A stretch of DNA of 64,000 nucleotides from positions 2,356,001 through 2,420,000 of the forward strand of contig NC_014831.1 of assembly GCF_000184705.1 (NCBI RefSeq), written 5' to 3'. Under the pieces are notes generated by a model, which saw nothing but the letters and a program-made list of their open reading frames with translations, did not search any database and had not been told where the DNA came from. The position numbers and the translations under genes are program-made. The stretch comes from Thermaerobacter marianensis DSM 12885 (GTDB lineage Bacteria; Bacillota; Sulfobacillia; Thermaerobacterales; Thermaerobacteraceae). Positions 23,300 to 41,562 of the stretch are shown here, piece after piece. How positions within the stretch are numbered: position 1 is the first letter of the stretch; each line of letters opens with the position of its first letter.

Positions 23300-23482
23300 G
23301 CTCCCCCGTTTCCCGTGAAAGTCTCCGGCCGCCCGTCCCGCACCCCCGCTCCGGGAGCGCGGCCATTCCCTGCGGCCGGGCCGAGAACTTGTGCAAGCGG
23401 TAGCCGTTTGGACCCGTCGCGGAGCCGCAGGGCCCCGGCCCGGTTGACCCGCTGCCAAGCGGGCCGGATACTGGAGATGGTA

Positions 23483-23578
23483 GCACCGTGGGGGTGCTGG
23501 CGTCACGCCGGCTGAGACGAGCCGCGGGCTCGAACCCCTCGAACCTGACGTGGGTAATGCCACCGGAGGGAACGGTGC
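23483..23578 (+). ncRNA. TPP riboswitch (THI element) of thiDWME
   Basis: The aptamer core is intact: GCTGAGA (23511-23517), ACCC, GAACCTGA (23541-23548), GGGTAATGCC (23552-23561) and GGAGGGAA. P1 is formed by GCACCGT (23483-23489) with ACGGTGC (23572-23578). The 3' strand of P1 can instead pair with GCACCG at 23616-23621, at the foot of the terminator, which gives a simple antiterminator switch. TPP binding should favour termination upstream of thiD. Confidence 0.92.
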
Positions 23579-23620
23579 GGTCCCGCCTCGACGATCGCTC
23601 CACGATCGCTGCCTGGCACC

Positions 23621-32562: not shown

Positions 32563-33804
32563 TCAACCGGCCGTCCCCGCGCTCTCCTCGGCCGGTTCCT
32601 CCACCGCGGCGTCCCCGCGGCCCGCGGCGGTAGCCACCGGCCGCCGCGCCGCCGCGCCGGGCAGGGCCAGGCGGCTGCCGTCCGACACCCGGAACAGGTG
32701 CAGGCGCGACACCGGCAGCCTGACGCCCACCGCCTCTCCCTCGACCACGGCGGCGTCGGCCGGCACCAGCGCCTGCAGGCGCAAGCCGTCGCCGGCCCCC
32801 GCAGCCGGACCCTGGCCCGGAACCGCGCCCTGGTCCGGTGCCGCCGGCGCCACCGCCGGGGCGCCCGCGCCCCGGCCGGCCTCCACGGTCACCAGCTTCT
32901 CGTGGCCGAGGAGCTCGACCATCGTCACCACGCCGTCGAGGTGCCCCTTGCCCGGCGCCACCAGCTGCACGTGGTGCGGCCGGATGCCGATCTCCACCTC
33001 GCCGTCCCGCGCCGCCGCCGGCAGCGGCAGGTACACGGGGAGGCCGTCCACCTGCAGGCGCGTGCCGCTCACCCGCCCCTGGAGCCAGTTCATGGGCGGG
33101 TGGCCGATGAAGGAAGCGGTGAAGCGGTTGGGCGGCGTCTGGTAGAGCTCGTACGGCGTGCCCTGGGCGACGCAGCGGCCGGCGTTCATCAGCACCACCC
33201 AGTCGGCGATGGTCATCGCCTCGGTCTGGTCGTGGGTGACCAGCACCGCCGTCACGCCCAGCTCCCGCTGGATGCGCCGGATCTCGGCCCGCATGGCCTG
33301 CCGCAGCTGGGCGTCCAGGTTCGAGAGGGGTTCGTCCAGGAGGAGCAGGGCTGGCCGCTTGACCAGCGCCCGGGCCAGGGCCACCCGCTGCTGCTGGCCG
33401 CCCGAGAGCTGCTCAGGCCGCCGGTCCAGCAGGGCGTCGACCTGCACGAGCTCCGCCATCTCGCGGACGCGGCGCCGGATCTCCCCCTCCGGGAGCTTCT
33501 GCATCCGCAGGGGGAAGGCGATGTTCTCGAACACCGTCATGTGCGGGTAGAGGGCGTAGCTCTGGAAGACCATGCCCACGTTGCGCCGCTGGGGCGGCAC
33601 GTCGTTGACCCGCACGTCGTCGAAGTAGATGTCGCCCGCCGTCGGCCGCAGCACGCCGGCCAGCATGTAGAGGGTGGTGGACTTCCCGCAGCCGGACGGC
33701 CCCAGCAGCGCCACCAGCCGACCGGGCTCCAGGTCCAGGGTCAGGCCGTCGACCGCCGTCACCGCACCGAAGCGCTTGGTCACGCCGTCCAGCCGGATCC
33801 TCAC
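32563..33804 (-). CDS. Carbohydrate ABC transporter ATPase (MalK/UgpC type)
   Basis: 413 residues. Walker A GPSGCGKSTTLYML, Q-loop MVFQSYALYPHMTV, signature LSGGQQQR, Walker B LLLLDEPLSNLD and switch His VLVTHDQTEAM. The C-terminal TOBE-like region (EIGIRPHHVQL, KLVTVEAG) is that of sugar importers. A Pro/Ala/Gly-rich insert (about 300-330) lengthens it. GTG 33804 overlaps the permease stop (GTGA). Having its own ATPase next to the permeases is less common than a shared MsmX-type ATPase. Confidence 0.88.
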   Translation of the reverse strand: MRIRLDGVTKRFGAVTAVDGLTLDLEPGRLVALLGPSGCGKSTTLYMLAGVLRPTAGDIYFDDVRVNDVPPQRRNVGMVFQSYALYPHMTVFENIAFPLRMQKLPEGEIRRRVREMAELVQVDALLDRRPEQLSGGQQQRVALARALVKRPALLLLDEPLSNLDAQLRQAMRAEIRRIQRELGVTAVLVTHDQTEAMTIADWVVLMNAGRCVAQGTPYELYQTPPNRFTASFIGHPPMNWLQGRVSGTRLQVDGLPVYLPLPAAARDGEVEIGIRPHHVQLVAPGKGHLDGVVTMVELLGHEKLVTVEAGRGAGAPAVAPAAPDQGAVPGQGPAAGAGDGLRLQALVPADAAVVEGEAVGVRLPVSRLHLFRVSDGSRLALPGAAARRPVATAAGRGDAAVEEPAEESAGTAG

Positions 33805-34637
33805 CGCTTCACACCCCCCGTGTACAACACCATCAGGTACCGCTGCAGGAACAGGTAGACCAGCATCACCGGGATCATGTAGAACACGGCCACCGCGGTC
33901 ACGGTGCCGTACCGGGCCACGTCGGCCTGGGAGAGCAGGGAGCCCAGGTACACCGGCAGCGTCTGGACGCCGGCGCCGGGCGCCAGGACGTACGGAAGCA
34001 GGAACTCGCTCCACCCCGAGAGGAAGGCGAAGACCGCCGACGCCATGAGCCCCGGCCGGATGATGGGCAGCACCATCCGCCACCAGGCCACCAGCCGGCT
34101 GGCGCCATCCAGCAGCGCCGCCATCTCGTGATCCCAGGACACCTGGTCGTAGAAGCCCTTGAGCACCCAGACGTGGAAGGGCAGCTCCAGGGCGATCTTG
34201 GCCAGCACCACGCCCGCCAGGGTGTCGTACAGGCCCAGCTGCCGCAGGAGCAGGAACAGCGCGACCAGCAGCGTGATCCCCGGGAAGGCGTGGAGCACGA
34301 TGAGCATCGCCAGCCAGAGCCGCCGCCCCGGCACGGGCAGGCGCGAGAGGGCGTAGGCGGCCGTGCTGGCCAGCAGCACCTCACCCAGGGCCACCAGGAC
34401 GGCAAAGAGGAAGGTGTTCAGCGTCAGCTGCCCGATGCCGGGCCCGAAGGGATCGGGCTGCCACAGGAACGACCAGTTCTCCAGCGTCCAGCCCAGGGGC
34501 CGGAAACCCTCCATGCCGTCGCTCCACGAAGCCAGAAGAAGCCACGCGTACAGCAGCAGCACGGGAAGCGTGACCGGTACCAGGAGCAGCCACGCCCACC
34601 GCGCCGGCCGCTGGGTCTCGCTCAGGCTGCCGAGCAC
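33801..34637 (-). CDS. Carbohydrate ABC transporter permease (MalG type)
   Basis: 278 residues, six hydrophobic segments, with the EAA loop seen as ELPFHVWVLKGFYDQV and then AALLDGASRLVAWWRMVLP (family G-x3-P at IRPGL). GTG 34637 has GAGGAGGTGA 4 nt upstream. It couples by GTGA to the ATPase downstream. The gap of 317 nt to the upstream permease is unusually large for such an operon. Confidence 0.87.
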   Translation of the reverse strand: MLGSLSETQRPARWAWLLLVPVTLPVLLLYAWLLLASWSDGMEGFRPLGWTLENWSFLWQPDPFGPGIGQLTLNTFLFAVLVALGEVLLASTAAYALSRLPVPGRRLWLAMLIVLHAFPGITLLVALFLLLRQLGLYDTLAGVVLAKIALELPFHVWVLKGFYDQVSWDHEMAALLDGASRLVAWWRMVLPIIRPGLMASAVFAFLSGWSEFLLPYVLAPGAGVQTLPVYLGSLLSQADVARYGTVTAVAVFYMIPVMLVYLFLQRYLMVLYTGGVKR

Positions 34638-34954: not shown

Positions 34955-35944
34955 TCAGCTGACCTCGATCCGGGGCTGCTGCGTCAACTGCCGGAAGTTG
35001 AAGAAGCGCAGGTAGAGCACCGACGCCACGAGGCCGATGAGCACCAGCACCGTGGCCAAGGCGGCACCGAGGCCGTACTGGGCGTTGCCGAAGTAGTTCG
35101 AAAGGGCCGTGTGGAAGGCGTACAGCGCCCAGACCTCGGTGGTGTAGAAGCCCGGACCGCCGTCGGTGGCCAGCAGGATGTACTCGTACGACGCCAGCAG
35201 CGACAGCGTCTGGTAGGCGGCCACGAACAGCGCCGGCCAGCGCAGCTGGGGCAGCACCACCCGCCGCACCAGCGCCCAGCTCCCCGCACCGTCCACCTGG
35301 GCGGCGATGAGCTGTTCCCGCGGGATGGCCTGGATGGCGGCGCTGAAGATGATCATCCCCATGGACGCGCCGACGAAGCCGTTGATGGCGACGACCATCG
35401 GCCACGGGTGCTCGTAGAGCCAGTTGCCGGCCGCCGGCAGCCCCAGGGCGGCCAGCACCTGGTTGATCACCCCGTAGGGCCGCTCGGCGGCGAAGTACTT
35501 CCACATCAGCACGTAGACCACCGACGGGGTGATGCGCGGAAGCAGCCACACCGCGCGGAAGAACCCGCCCCACCGCCCAGGCAGGAAGGCCGTGGCCAGC
35601 GCCAGCACCAGCGCCAGCCCGACGTTGAACAGCGTCAGGGTGGCGCCCACGTAAAGCAGGGTGTTGCGGAGCACGAGCCCCGCCACCGGGTCGGTGGCGA
35701 CGCGCTGATAGTTCTCCAGCCCCACCCAGCGGAACCCGCGCAGCCCCGTGGCCACGCTGACGTCGGTGAGGCTGAGAAGCACCGTCACCACCGCGGGGAT
35801 CACGAAGAACACGGCCACCACCAGCGCGAAGGGCAGGAGGAACCCCAGCCCCAGGCGCCAGGGGGCCGCGGGGCGGCCGGCCGCCAGGGCCGCGGCCGGC
35901 CCGCCCGCAGGCAGGCCGGTGGCCGGGCGCACCGCCCGGCTCAC
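34955..35944 (-). CDS. Carbohydrate ABC transporter permease (MalF type)
   Basis: 329 residues. Six membrane segments after a Gly/Ala-rich N-terminus; ENYQRVATDP, RNTLLYVGATL and the EAA loop (REQLIAAQVDGAGSWALVR then VLPQL) identify a MalF-like permease. GTG 35944 overlaps the binding-protein stop (GTGA), so the first two cistrons are coupled. Confidence 0.87.
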   Translation of the reverse strand: MSRAVRPATGLPAGGPAAALAAGRPAAPWRLGLGFLLPFALVVAVFFVIPAVVTVLLSLTDVSVATGLRGFRWVGLENYQRVATDPVAGLVLRNTLLYVGATLTLFNVGLALVLALATAFLPGRWGGFFRAVWLLPRITPSVVYVLMWKYFAAERPYGVINQVLAALGLPAAGNWLYEHPWPMVVAINGFVGASMGMIIFSAAIQAIPREQLIAAQVDGAGSWALVRRVVLPQLRWPALFVAAYQTLSLLASYEYILLATDGGPGFYTTEVWALYAFHTALSNYFGNAQYGLGAALATVLVLIGLVASVLYLRFFNFRQLTQQPRIEVS

Positions 35945-37407
35945 CGGATGATCACCTCGTCCCGCAGCTGCGCCTGCAGCTGCTTGACCACCGTGTCGAC
36001 GGCCTGCTCCGGCGTCATCTGCCCGGCCACCACCGCCGACAGCCCGCGGTAGATGGCCTGGTCGTAGTTGCCGAACTGCGCGTGCAGCGGGACGAACCCG
36101 GCGTATTCGACCATGTAGGCGAGGTCGCCCAGCAGCCGGTTCTCCTTGTACTCAGGCTGCTCGAGCTGGGACTTCAGGATCGCCAGGTGGTTGCTCTCCA
36201 CCGCATGGCGCGTGTTGAACTCGGGGTTCGTCGCCTCCAGGATCAGCCGCGCCGCCAGGTCGGGGTGCTGGGAGTACTTCGTCACCATGTAGACCAGCGG
36301 GTGGGAGAGGGTGACCCCCGGCTTGCCCTTCTCGCCCGCCGGCAGCAGTGCGTAGCCCAGATCCTGGACATCGGCGTCCGTCAGGCCGTACTGGTCCTGC
36401 CACTCGGCCACCTGCCACGAGCCGCCGACGAACAGGCCCACCTGCTTGCCCGTCACCGTGCGGTGCCAGATGGACCAGTCGGTGCCGAGCAGCGACGGCT
36501 TCAGCACGCCCAGCTCCCGCGCCCGGGCGAAGAACTGGTACTCCTTCAGCAGCGCCTCCTTGTCAAGCACCAGCTTCCCCGTCGCCGGGTCCTGCATCTG
36601 GCCGCCGTAGGCCAGGTAGAACATGTAGAAGTCCACGCCCGGCTGCGGCCGCGTCCAGAAGCCCTGGCCGGCCGGCACGATGCCGCGGTCCTGGAGCTGC
36701 TTGGCAAGATCCAGCAGGTCGTCCAGGGTGAAGTCGCCGGTCCTGATGCGCTCGGGCAGCTGGGCGATCTGCTGGTCGGTCCAGCCCAGCTGCTTCAGGT
36801 GCGACTTCCAGAAGTAAAGGGGCCGCGCCTCGGTATCCTGCGGGATACCCCAGATCTTGCCGTCCAGGGTCACGGACTCCCACAGGGTCGGGAACACGTC
36901 CTGGTAGACCGGGCTGTCCTTGACGTACTCGTCCAGGGGAACGATGTGCCCGGCCGCCGCCCACGGCGCCACGTCCTCGTGGCCGCTGAGGATGATGTCC
37001 GGCGCCTTGCCCGCCTCGGCCGCCAGGATGAACCGCTGCTTGTACTCGTCCCACGGCCGGTCCTCGTGGGTACCTTCCAGCTGGACGCGGACATTCGCCC
37101 CCTCCTGCTCGAGCTTCTGGTTGAGGCGCTCCACCGCGTCCTTCAGGTTGTCGAACCGGTAGCGCTCCGTGGGCTTGCCGATGGTCATGGCCCGCAGGGT
37201 CACGGTCTGGACGCCCTGCTCCCCGCCGGACGAACCGGCCCCGCCCGCAGCCTGATCGCCGGCGGCGGGCTGGCCGCCCGAACCGCCGCACCCGGCCAGC
37301 ACCAGCAGGCCCGCCACCAGGGCCGCCGCCAGCGCCCGCCGCAGGGCGCGGCCGCGGGCGCGCCGGCCCATGCACCCGTTGACGCCATTCGTCCACCGAT
37401 CCAGCAC
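35941..37407 (-). CDS. Extracellular solute-binding lipoprotein of a sugar ABC transporter
   Basis: 488 residues. Signal with lipobox LLVLAGC (Cys near 40), then a Gly/Ser-rich linker and a family 1 solute-binding fold: KAPDIILSGHEDVAPWAAAGHIVPLDEY, SVTLDGKIWGIPQDTE, VGLFVGGSWQVAEWQ and GVTLSHPLVYMVTKYSQH. Substrate is likely an oligosaccharide or polyol; no nearby glycosidase narrows it. GTG 37407 follows GGGAGGTGA at 6 nt. It is the first gene of the operon, about 450 nt downstream of a sigma-A-like promoter with a CIRCE-like element. Confidence 0.87.
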   Translation of the reverse strand: MLDRWTNGVNGCMGRRARGRALRRALAAALVAGLLVLAGCGGSGGQPAAGDQAAGGAGSSGGEQGVQTVTLRAMTIGKPTERYRFDNLKDAVERLNQKLEQEGANVRVQLEGTHEDRPWDEYKQRFILAAEAGKAPDIILSGHEDVAPWAAAGHIVPLDEYVKDSPVYQDVFPTLWESVTLDGKIWGIPQDTEARPLYFWKSHLKQLGWTDQQIAQLPERIRTGDFTLDDLLDLAKQLQDRGIVPAGQGFWTRPQPGVDFYMFYLAYGGQMQDPATGKLVLDKEALLKEYQFFARARELGVLKPSLLGTDWSIWHRTVTGKQVGLFVGGSWQVAEWQDQYGLTDADVQDLGYALLPAGEKGKPGVTLSHPLVYMVTKYSQHPDLAARLILEATNPEFNTRHAVESNHLAILKSQLEQPEYKENRLLGDLAYMVEYAGFVPLHAQFGNYDQAIYRGLSAVVAGQMTPEQAVDTVVKQLQAQLRDEVIIR

Positions 37408-37830
37408 GAACGGTCACCTCCCGTTCCCGTGGACCCGTGGCGCGGCGGGCGGATCCGATCCCGTGGCCTGCAGGCGGCCGTACCTGACCACGGCCGGTGG
37501 AGCGGTGCCGGCGACGGACCGGCAGGTGTGCGCGGCTCCCGCCCGCGGCACGCCCGGGTCTGGCCTTGACCGGTCCCGATCCCCGAACCCGGCCGGCACC
37601 GTCCGGCAGGCACCTCCCGCGGACCGGCACGAACATGCCCGAGGTGCCACCGCTGCCGGCACGGCACGGCCCGCGCGAACCCACCGCTCGCCGGGCCCGC
37701 CGGGGGGTTCGGGTTCCCATGCTGGCAAGCGGGTTCGTCCGTAAAACCCGTGGATGCGACCTCGGTTGTTGCCGCTTCGAGCCTCGTTGGAAGGGGCTTT
37801 GAAGGTGACCGGCCCGTCGGGGCCGGTCTG
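37408..37830 (-). other. Long untranslated leader of the sugar ABC operon
   Basis: About 420 nt between the CIRCE-like site and the binding-protein start. Near its 5' end GACCGGCCC (37807-37815) pairs with GGGCCGGTC (37820-37828) around a 4-nt loop. Frames here have no recognisable protein. Holds one dispersed motif copy at 37730-37740. Confidence 0.4.
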
Positions 37831-37857
37831 TTAGCAGATGAGAACGACGAGTGCTAA
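37831..37857 (-). promoter_or_regulatory. CIRCE-like element (HrcA operator)
   Basis: On the plus strand TTAGCAGAT-N9-GAGTGCTAA, compared with the CIRCE consensus TTAGCACTC-N9-GAGTGCTAA: one half is perfect, the other matches 6 of 9, and the 9-nt spacer is exact. It begins about 12 bp downstream of the -10 box at 37869-37874, the usual CIRCE position at the start of a transcript. The downstream genes are a sugar transporter, not chaperones. Confidence 0.7.
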
Positions 37858-37868
37858 CAAGCAATTGG

Positions 37869-37898
37869 AATATATCCTCAGACTTAGCGGGATGTCAA
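37869..37898 (-). promoter_or_regulatory. Sigma-A-type promoter of the sugar ABC operon
   Basis: On the minus strand TTGACA (37898-37893), an 18-bp spacer, and TATATT (37874-37869). This is the best -35/-10 pair in the window. It starts 14 nt after the ribH stop, reading toward the binding-protein gene. Confidence 0.75.
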
Positions 37899-41247: not shown

Positions 41248-41283
41248 GGAAGCAGGCGATGGGCGGTGATTGGCTCGCCATGC

Positions 41284-41387
41284 GACCGCATTCCCGACGC
41301 CGGCATGATCCGGATCCGGTGATGGGGGTCGGCGACGCCGTCCCAGTCGCCCTCTCAGCCCGGTTGCCCCGGACTCCCCCCGCGGTC
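41284..41387 (-). ncRNA. TPP riboswitch of tenA
   Basis: On the minus strand: GACCGC (P1), GGGGGGAGTC, GGGCTGAGAGG, GACCCCC, ACCGGATCCGGATCATGCCGGCG, GGGAATGC and GCGGTC closing P1. The CTGAGA and TGCC...GGGAA blocks are diagnostic. Compared with the thiD copy, the usual CCTGA is CCGGA and ATAATGCC is ATCATGCC, but pairing is kept. Confidence 0.88.
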
Positions 41388-41562
41388 TCTTCAGGGGTAT
41401 TCATACGCCACGGCACCCTACACTCCTTCCCGGGTCTCCGCGGGGCCGGCGGCCTGGCAGGGAATCGGCCTCCATCTCACCCTCGCGCTCTCCAGGTGGC
41501 AGGATGCTCCCATCGCGATCTAGAAATGGGTGGGCAGACCAACGTCGATGGGGGATGCGTCC
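41388..41562. promoter_or_regulatory. Divergent promoter region tenA / Yip1 gene
   Basis: Must hold the start of the tenA leader and of the Yip1-macB operon. A GTATGAATAC patch at 41396-41405 is a possible tenA -10 on the minus strand. No firm boxes otherwise. Confidence 0.3.

Follow-up and report, generated by a model that had tools for sequence, protein, structure and literature searches.

A conserved CIRCE-type operator predicted to place a sugar ABC importer of Thermaerobacter marianensis under the heat-shock repressor HrcA

HrcA, CIRCE and the nearest described systems

The repressor HrcA is generally regarded as a specialised regulator of chaperone genes, and regulon reconstructions place groESL and dnaK at the core of its targets (PMC545781); its mechanism has been established in other bacteria (summarised in PMC8045354). 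The systems closest to the one considered here are the class I heat-shock promoters of groESL and hrcA-grpE-dnaK-dnaJ, in which an operator with a TTAGCACTC arm and a 9-bp spacer lies 10-13 nt behind the -10 hexamer of a sigma70 promoter, in genomes that encode HrcA. All of these traits are shared by a site in Thermaerobacter marianensis which, in contrast to the class I promoters, precedes the genes of a sugar importer rather than chaperones and has a promoter-distal arm that departs from the consensus in a constant manner.

Broader roles of HrcA have been described in another phylum. In Waddlia chondrophila, ChIP-seq of HrcA returned the reduced motif TAGCA-N15-TGCTAA, a synthetic repeat of which was shifted by the protein in EMSA (PMC4989314), and for Chlamydia trachomatis 13 predicted heat-induced genes are given (PMC8762339). 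A reduced core motif and targets beyond the chaperones are also found at the importer, whose operator retains the Waddlia core; however, the available parts of these two sources report no sugar ABC operon, and the importer site is conserved by orthology in five genomes. The GDP-mannose cluster of Thermoanaerobacter (mpg-gtf with GH130 phosphorylases, PMC4264767) carries the same asymmetric form of CIRCE as the importer, but it is devoted to mannose activation and glycosyl transfer, its perfect arm is the promoter-distal one, and the part of the source available makes no mention of HrcA regulation. As to the genes themselves, the importer has the architecture of LacI-associated CUT1 sugar operons of other Bacillota, with solute-binding proteins that are 37-45% identical, and these differ in having a LacI gene nearby in most cases and a TIM-barrel sugar isomerase in several, without CIRCE. 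Sugar-transport transcripts are altered in an hrcA mutant of L. plantarum, a result for which the accessible portion of the paper gives no link to CIRCE (PMC3842655). Sugar ABC operons, inositol-1-phosphate synthase and guanylyltransferase are not reported as CIRCE/HrcA targets in the literature searched, which took in a minority of the subscription journals.

The importer operon and its promoter-operator

The window, that is, the whole 64,000-nt stretch of the T. marianensis chromosome analysed here, contains the features listed in Table 1. The original prediction had described a TTGACA-N18-TATATT promoter followed by a 15/18 match to CIRCE with the exact 9-bp spacer, and this is confirmed in the sequence of the minus strand, where the operator reads in full TTAGCACTC-GTCGTTCTC-ATCTGCTAA (37857-37831). 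The proximal arm agrees with CIRCE at 9/9 positions and the distal arm at 6/9, differing from the consensus arm GAGTGCTAA at three; when the local 112 bp were shuffled, one in 20,000 shuffles equalled this match. Between 37300 and 38450, TTGACA/TATATT is the only sigma70-like promoter match (11/12 positions; shuffles give 0.1). The operator also occupies the start-of-transcript position that had been proposed for it, at a distance behind the -10 hexamer (11 nt) comparable to that at groES (10 nt) and hrcA (13 nt).

The original prediction had also described the downstream genes, as those of a solute-binding protein, a pair of permeases and an ATPase; this is confirmed, and the set is that of a carbohydrate importer of the CUT1 type, with a MalK-type ATPase. 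They start about 450 nt downstream of the promoter, and the connection between the two is drawn from their orientation, from synteny and from the fact that no terminator-like site was found between promoter and operon. The long leader that separates the predicted start point from the start codon of the solute-binding protein matched no Rfam family, and no conserved sequence was found downstream of the operator among the family genomes; on these grounds a structured leader or riboswitch was rejected. Elsewhere in the window there are two TPP riboswitches, at 23480-23588 (+) and 41274-41390 (-), the second of which overlaps the start of a tenA-like ORF whose true start probably lies further downstream.

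No sugar is named for the importer, because all NCBIfam equivalog cut-offs were missed and searches of NCBIfam profiles and PDB sequences with the solute-binding protein gave only remote maltose or oligosaccharide binders. T. marianensis, which grows at 50-80 °C, uses trehalose, maltose, maltotriose, cellobiose and others (PMC3035304), a spectrum so broad that growth data do not choose the substrate. Import of trehalose as a heat protectant is possible but unsupported, and the refuelling of repair or a supply for glycan synthesis would fit equally well.

Table 1. Features of the importer locus in the window. G000 is T. marianensis and G001 to G004 are the other family genomes.
Feature	Position	Strand	Remarks
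-35 hexamer TTGACA	37893..37898	-	Invariant in 5/5 family genomes
-10 hexamer TATATT	37869..37874	-	18-nt spacer from -35; TAAATT in G004
CIRCE-type operator TTAGCACTC-N9-ATCTGCTAA	37831..37857	-	Starts 11 nt after -10
Promoter-proximal arm TTAGCACTC	37849..37857	-	Perfect CIRCE arm; invariant in 5/5 genomes
Promoter-distal arm ATCTGCTAA	37831..37839	-	In relatives GTC/GCC/AGC-TGCTAA, never GAG
Long untranslated leader	37408..37862	-	Predicted start point; sequence not conserved
G+C-rich RNA hairpin directly 3' of operator, in leader	37807..37828	-	Strong; clear in G000-G002 only, not clear in G003/G004
Solute-binding lipoprotein, CUT1 carbohydrate family (SBP_bac_1)	35941..37407	-	
ABC permease, MalF-like	34955..35944	-	
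ABC permease, MalG-like	33801..34637	-	Start codon uncertain
ABC ATPase, MalK/UgpC-like	32563..33804	-	

HrcA and competing explanations of the site

HrcA, whose absence the original prediction had named as a decisive objection, is encoded in T. marianensis with an intact frame (Pfam HrcA, E=1.3e-61), and its gene is itself preceded by a perfect CIRCE. The comparison with groESL and other sites across the genome, which had also been proposed, was run as a mismatch count: the 2.84-Mb genome contains only four CIRCE sites with three mismatches or fewer (expected 0.15 at this base composition; none for a reversed control pattern), and these precede groESL, hrcA, the sugar ABC operon and a GDP-mannose/glycosyltransferase cluster. 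The groESL and hrcA sites are perfect and sit behind a TTGACG promoter at a distance similar to that of the importer site, which is the weakest of the four by mismatch count. The importer is not a chaperone target, which would be usual for HrcA/CIRCE, although not required. Relaxing the pattern to TTAGCA-N15-TGCTAA with up to one mismatch added nothing in T. marianensis and one weak match in G004; in the family genomes such a pattern yields essentially CIRCE sites alone and, therefore, no other regulon appears to use this spacing.

The five family genomes, which represent two genera, all have the orthologous four-gene operon, with importer proteins that are 77-98% identical, and in each of them the promoter stands upstream of this operon with the operator in a matching position behind it. 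The genes beside the operon differ from genome to genome (a ribD-ribH flank is common to T. marianensis and G002 only), and the promoter-operator stays with the operon despite the changed neighbours. Counted over the four distinct sequences that the five genomes provide, invariant columns make up 16/18 of the arms and 1/9 of the spacer (Fisher p=1.7e-4); in the flanks their share is about 2%. Such a pattern marks a site where selection maintains the binding of a protein. The distal arm always reads nnCTGCTAA and never GAGTGCTAA. An older origin of the operator, already present in a common ancestor of this operon and its distant homologues, is not supported: near the genes of seven distant homologues of the solute-binding protein in other Bacillota (37-45% identity), no CIRCE was found within 1.5 kb, the best matches having 5-8 mismatches.

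The 27-bp element is thus best read as a genuine operator of HrcA, although probably a weakened one, and we hold it highly likely that it is a CIRCE-type site on the transcription start of the sole promoter found for the importer, at which HrcA would block initiation in unstressed cells and from which it would be released on stress. Since CIRCE on the importer promoter is conserved in 5/5 genomes, HrcA very probably regulates not only protein folding but also sugar uptake in Thermaerobacter, a judgement drawn from comparative sequence analysis. As long as there is no stress, GroEL/ES would keep HrcA active, and the repressor would bind the operator and block initiation; under heat or other stress, unfolded proteins would titrate GroEL, HrcA would be released, and the importer, presumably carrying a sugar useful under such conditions, would be produced at the same time as GroESL and the DnaK machinery. 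It is a reasonable inference that the asymmetric operator is weaker than a perfect CIRCE; as the distal arm departs from the consensus in every family genome, repression at the importer would probably be looser than at groESL and hrcA, with a higher basal level and an earlier release. The low rank of the site by mismatch count could also be taken to mean that HrcA can bind there to no physiological effect, but this is very improbable in our judgement, given that purifying selection has preserved the site amid intergenic DNA that otherwise drifts fast, and that it has been retained across two genera while the neighbouring genes changed.

Conservation limited to the TTAGCA/TGCTAA arms would have pointed to a LacI-type sugar operator, as the original prediction recognised; instead, the entire TTAGCACTC arm and the C preceding TGCTAA are also invariant in the five genomes. 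LacI genes are often adjacent to distant homologues of the operon, at least one of which has a LacI-like palindrome at the start of the solute-binding protein gene, but a LacI palindrome does not extend over 27 bp with 15 bp between its halves. Furthermore, a LacI operator is refuted for three of the five genomes (G000, G002 and G003), where the site is conserved and no LacI-family protein was found by a search that was positive in 9/14 control genomes, so that this explanation has next to no probability left. These three genomes are without any LacI-family regulator despite several sugar ABC importers. Taken together, the presence of HrcA, the conservation beyond the LacI-like arms and the lack of a LacI protein in T. 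marianensis lend support to the predicted HrcA operator. Most of the seven distant homologues lie near LacI genes, and it appears that in the lineage of Thermaerobacteraceae HrcA took over from a regulator of the LacI type.

The position of the inverted repeat at the 5' end of the transcript raises the question of an mRNA hairpin that sets transcript stability instead of a DNA operator. In G000 and G001 the arms can in fact pair as an 8-bp stem followed by a second hairpin, yet in G003 and G004, which are more diverged, shuffled sequences fold equally well. Moreover, the CTC of the proximal arm is invariant with no conserved pairing partner, and the arms and the exact 9-bp spacer agree with CIRCE; a hairpin function is accordingly very unlikely.

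A more serious competitor to HrcA, although still an unlikely one, is another repressor, recognising TTAGCACTC...CTGCTAA, for which the site would be CIRCE-like only. Two facts count against a plain HrcA operator and in its favour: the mismatches of the distal arm recur in every genome at identical positions, at the end next to the spacer, and the C that precedes TGCTAA, not required of a simply degraded CIRCE, is invariant. Against it, the relaxed search in the family genomes found scarcely anything but CIRCE sites, the HrcA of Waddlia recognises the same core in the part of the study available (PMC4989314), and the variant precedes undoubted HrcA-type genes elsewhere. In particular, exact TTAGCACTC-N11-CTGCTAA was found in 22 of 398 Bacillota genomes (control 0; simple arithmetic for 16 fixed bases gives a chance estimate of about 0.5), 18 of which lie outside Thermaerobacteraceae; the sites in these include some before groEL, hrcA, clpB and hsp20, and the asymmetric form therefore belongs to HrcA-type targets.

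CIRCE before other carbohydrate genes

The fourth CIRCE site of T. marianensis (2259546-2259572 of the chromosome, two mismatches) lies 105 bp before a gene for a sugar-nucleotide transferase, which none of the other four family genomes has; this gene is followed by those for a family-4 glycosyltransferase, a conserved protein and a phosphomannomutase. The first three genes share their order with the GDP-mannose cluster of Thermoanaerobacter (PMC4264767). In six genomes of one family, of the Thermoanaerobacter type, an asymmetric CIRCE precedes the mpg-gtf genes for GDP-mannose in the GH130 cluster, directly behind TTGACA/TATAAT-type promoters, and the other sites with 0-2 mismatches in the four of the group that were scanned in full are before groEL and hrcA only. 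Furthermore, the variant precedes the gene for myo-inositol-1-phosphate synthase in four Bacillota genomes of three families. With the importer, the GDP-mannose and the inositol-phosphate sites, CIRCE is therefore found before carbohydrate genes in at least three gene contexts. In the intergenic regions of two genomes, G049 and G065, the asymmetric form is also present, the nearest gene in G049 being that of a response regulator.

Through the operator predicted on the importer, GroEL as the sensor of protein folding would have a direct link to the supply of carbohydrate. More tentatively, and with slightly less than even confidence, we propose from the distribution of these sites that HrcA/CIRCE has been recruited repeatedly in Bacillota, thermophilic and other, for a heat-triggered carbohydrate programme alongside the chaperones, comprising sugar import in Thermaerobacteraceae, the GDP-mannose and glycosyl-transfer genes of T. 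marianensis and of genomes of the Thermoanaerobacter type, and, in others, the synthesis of myo-inositol-1-phosphate; such a programme would perhaps build protective solutes or glycans. In unrelated Bacillota the same form of operator stands before genes for GDP-mannose and for inositol phosphate, which leads to the testable general idea that the heat-shock response of these bacteria includes a sugar/glycan arm under HrcA, and an hrcA deletion strain of Thermoanaerobacter kivui exists (PMC12044746).
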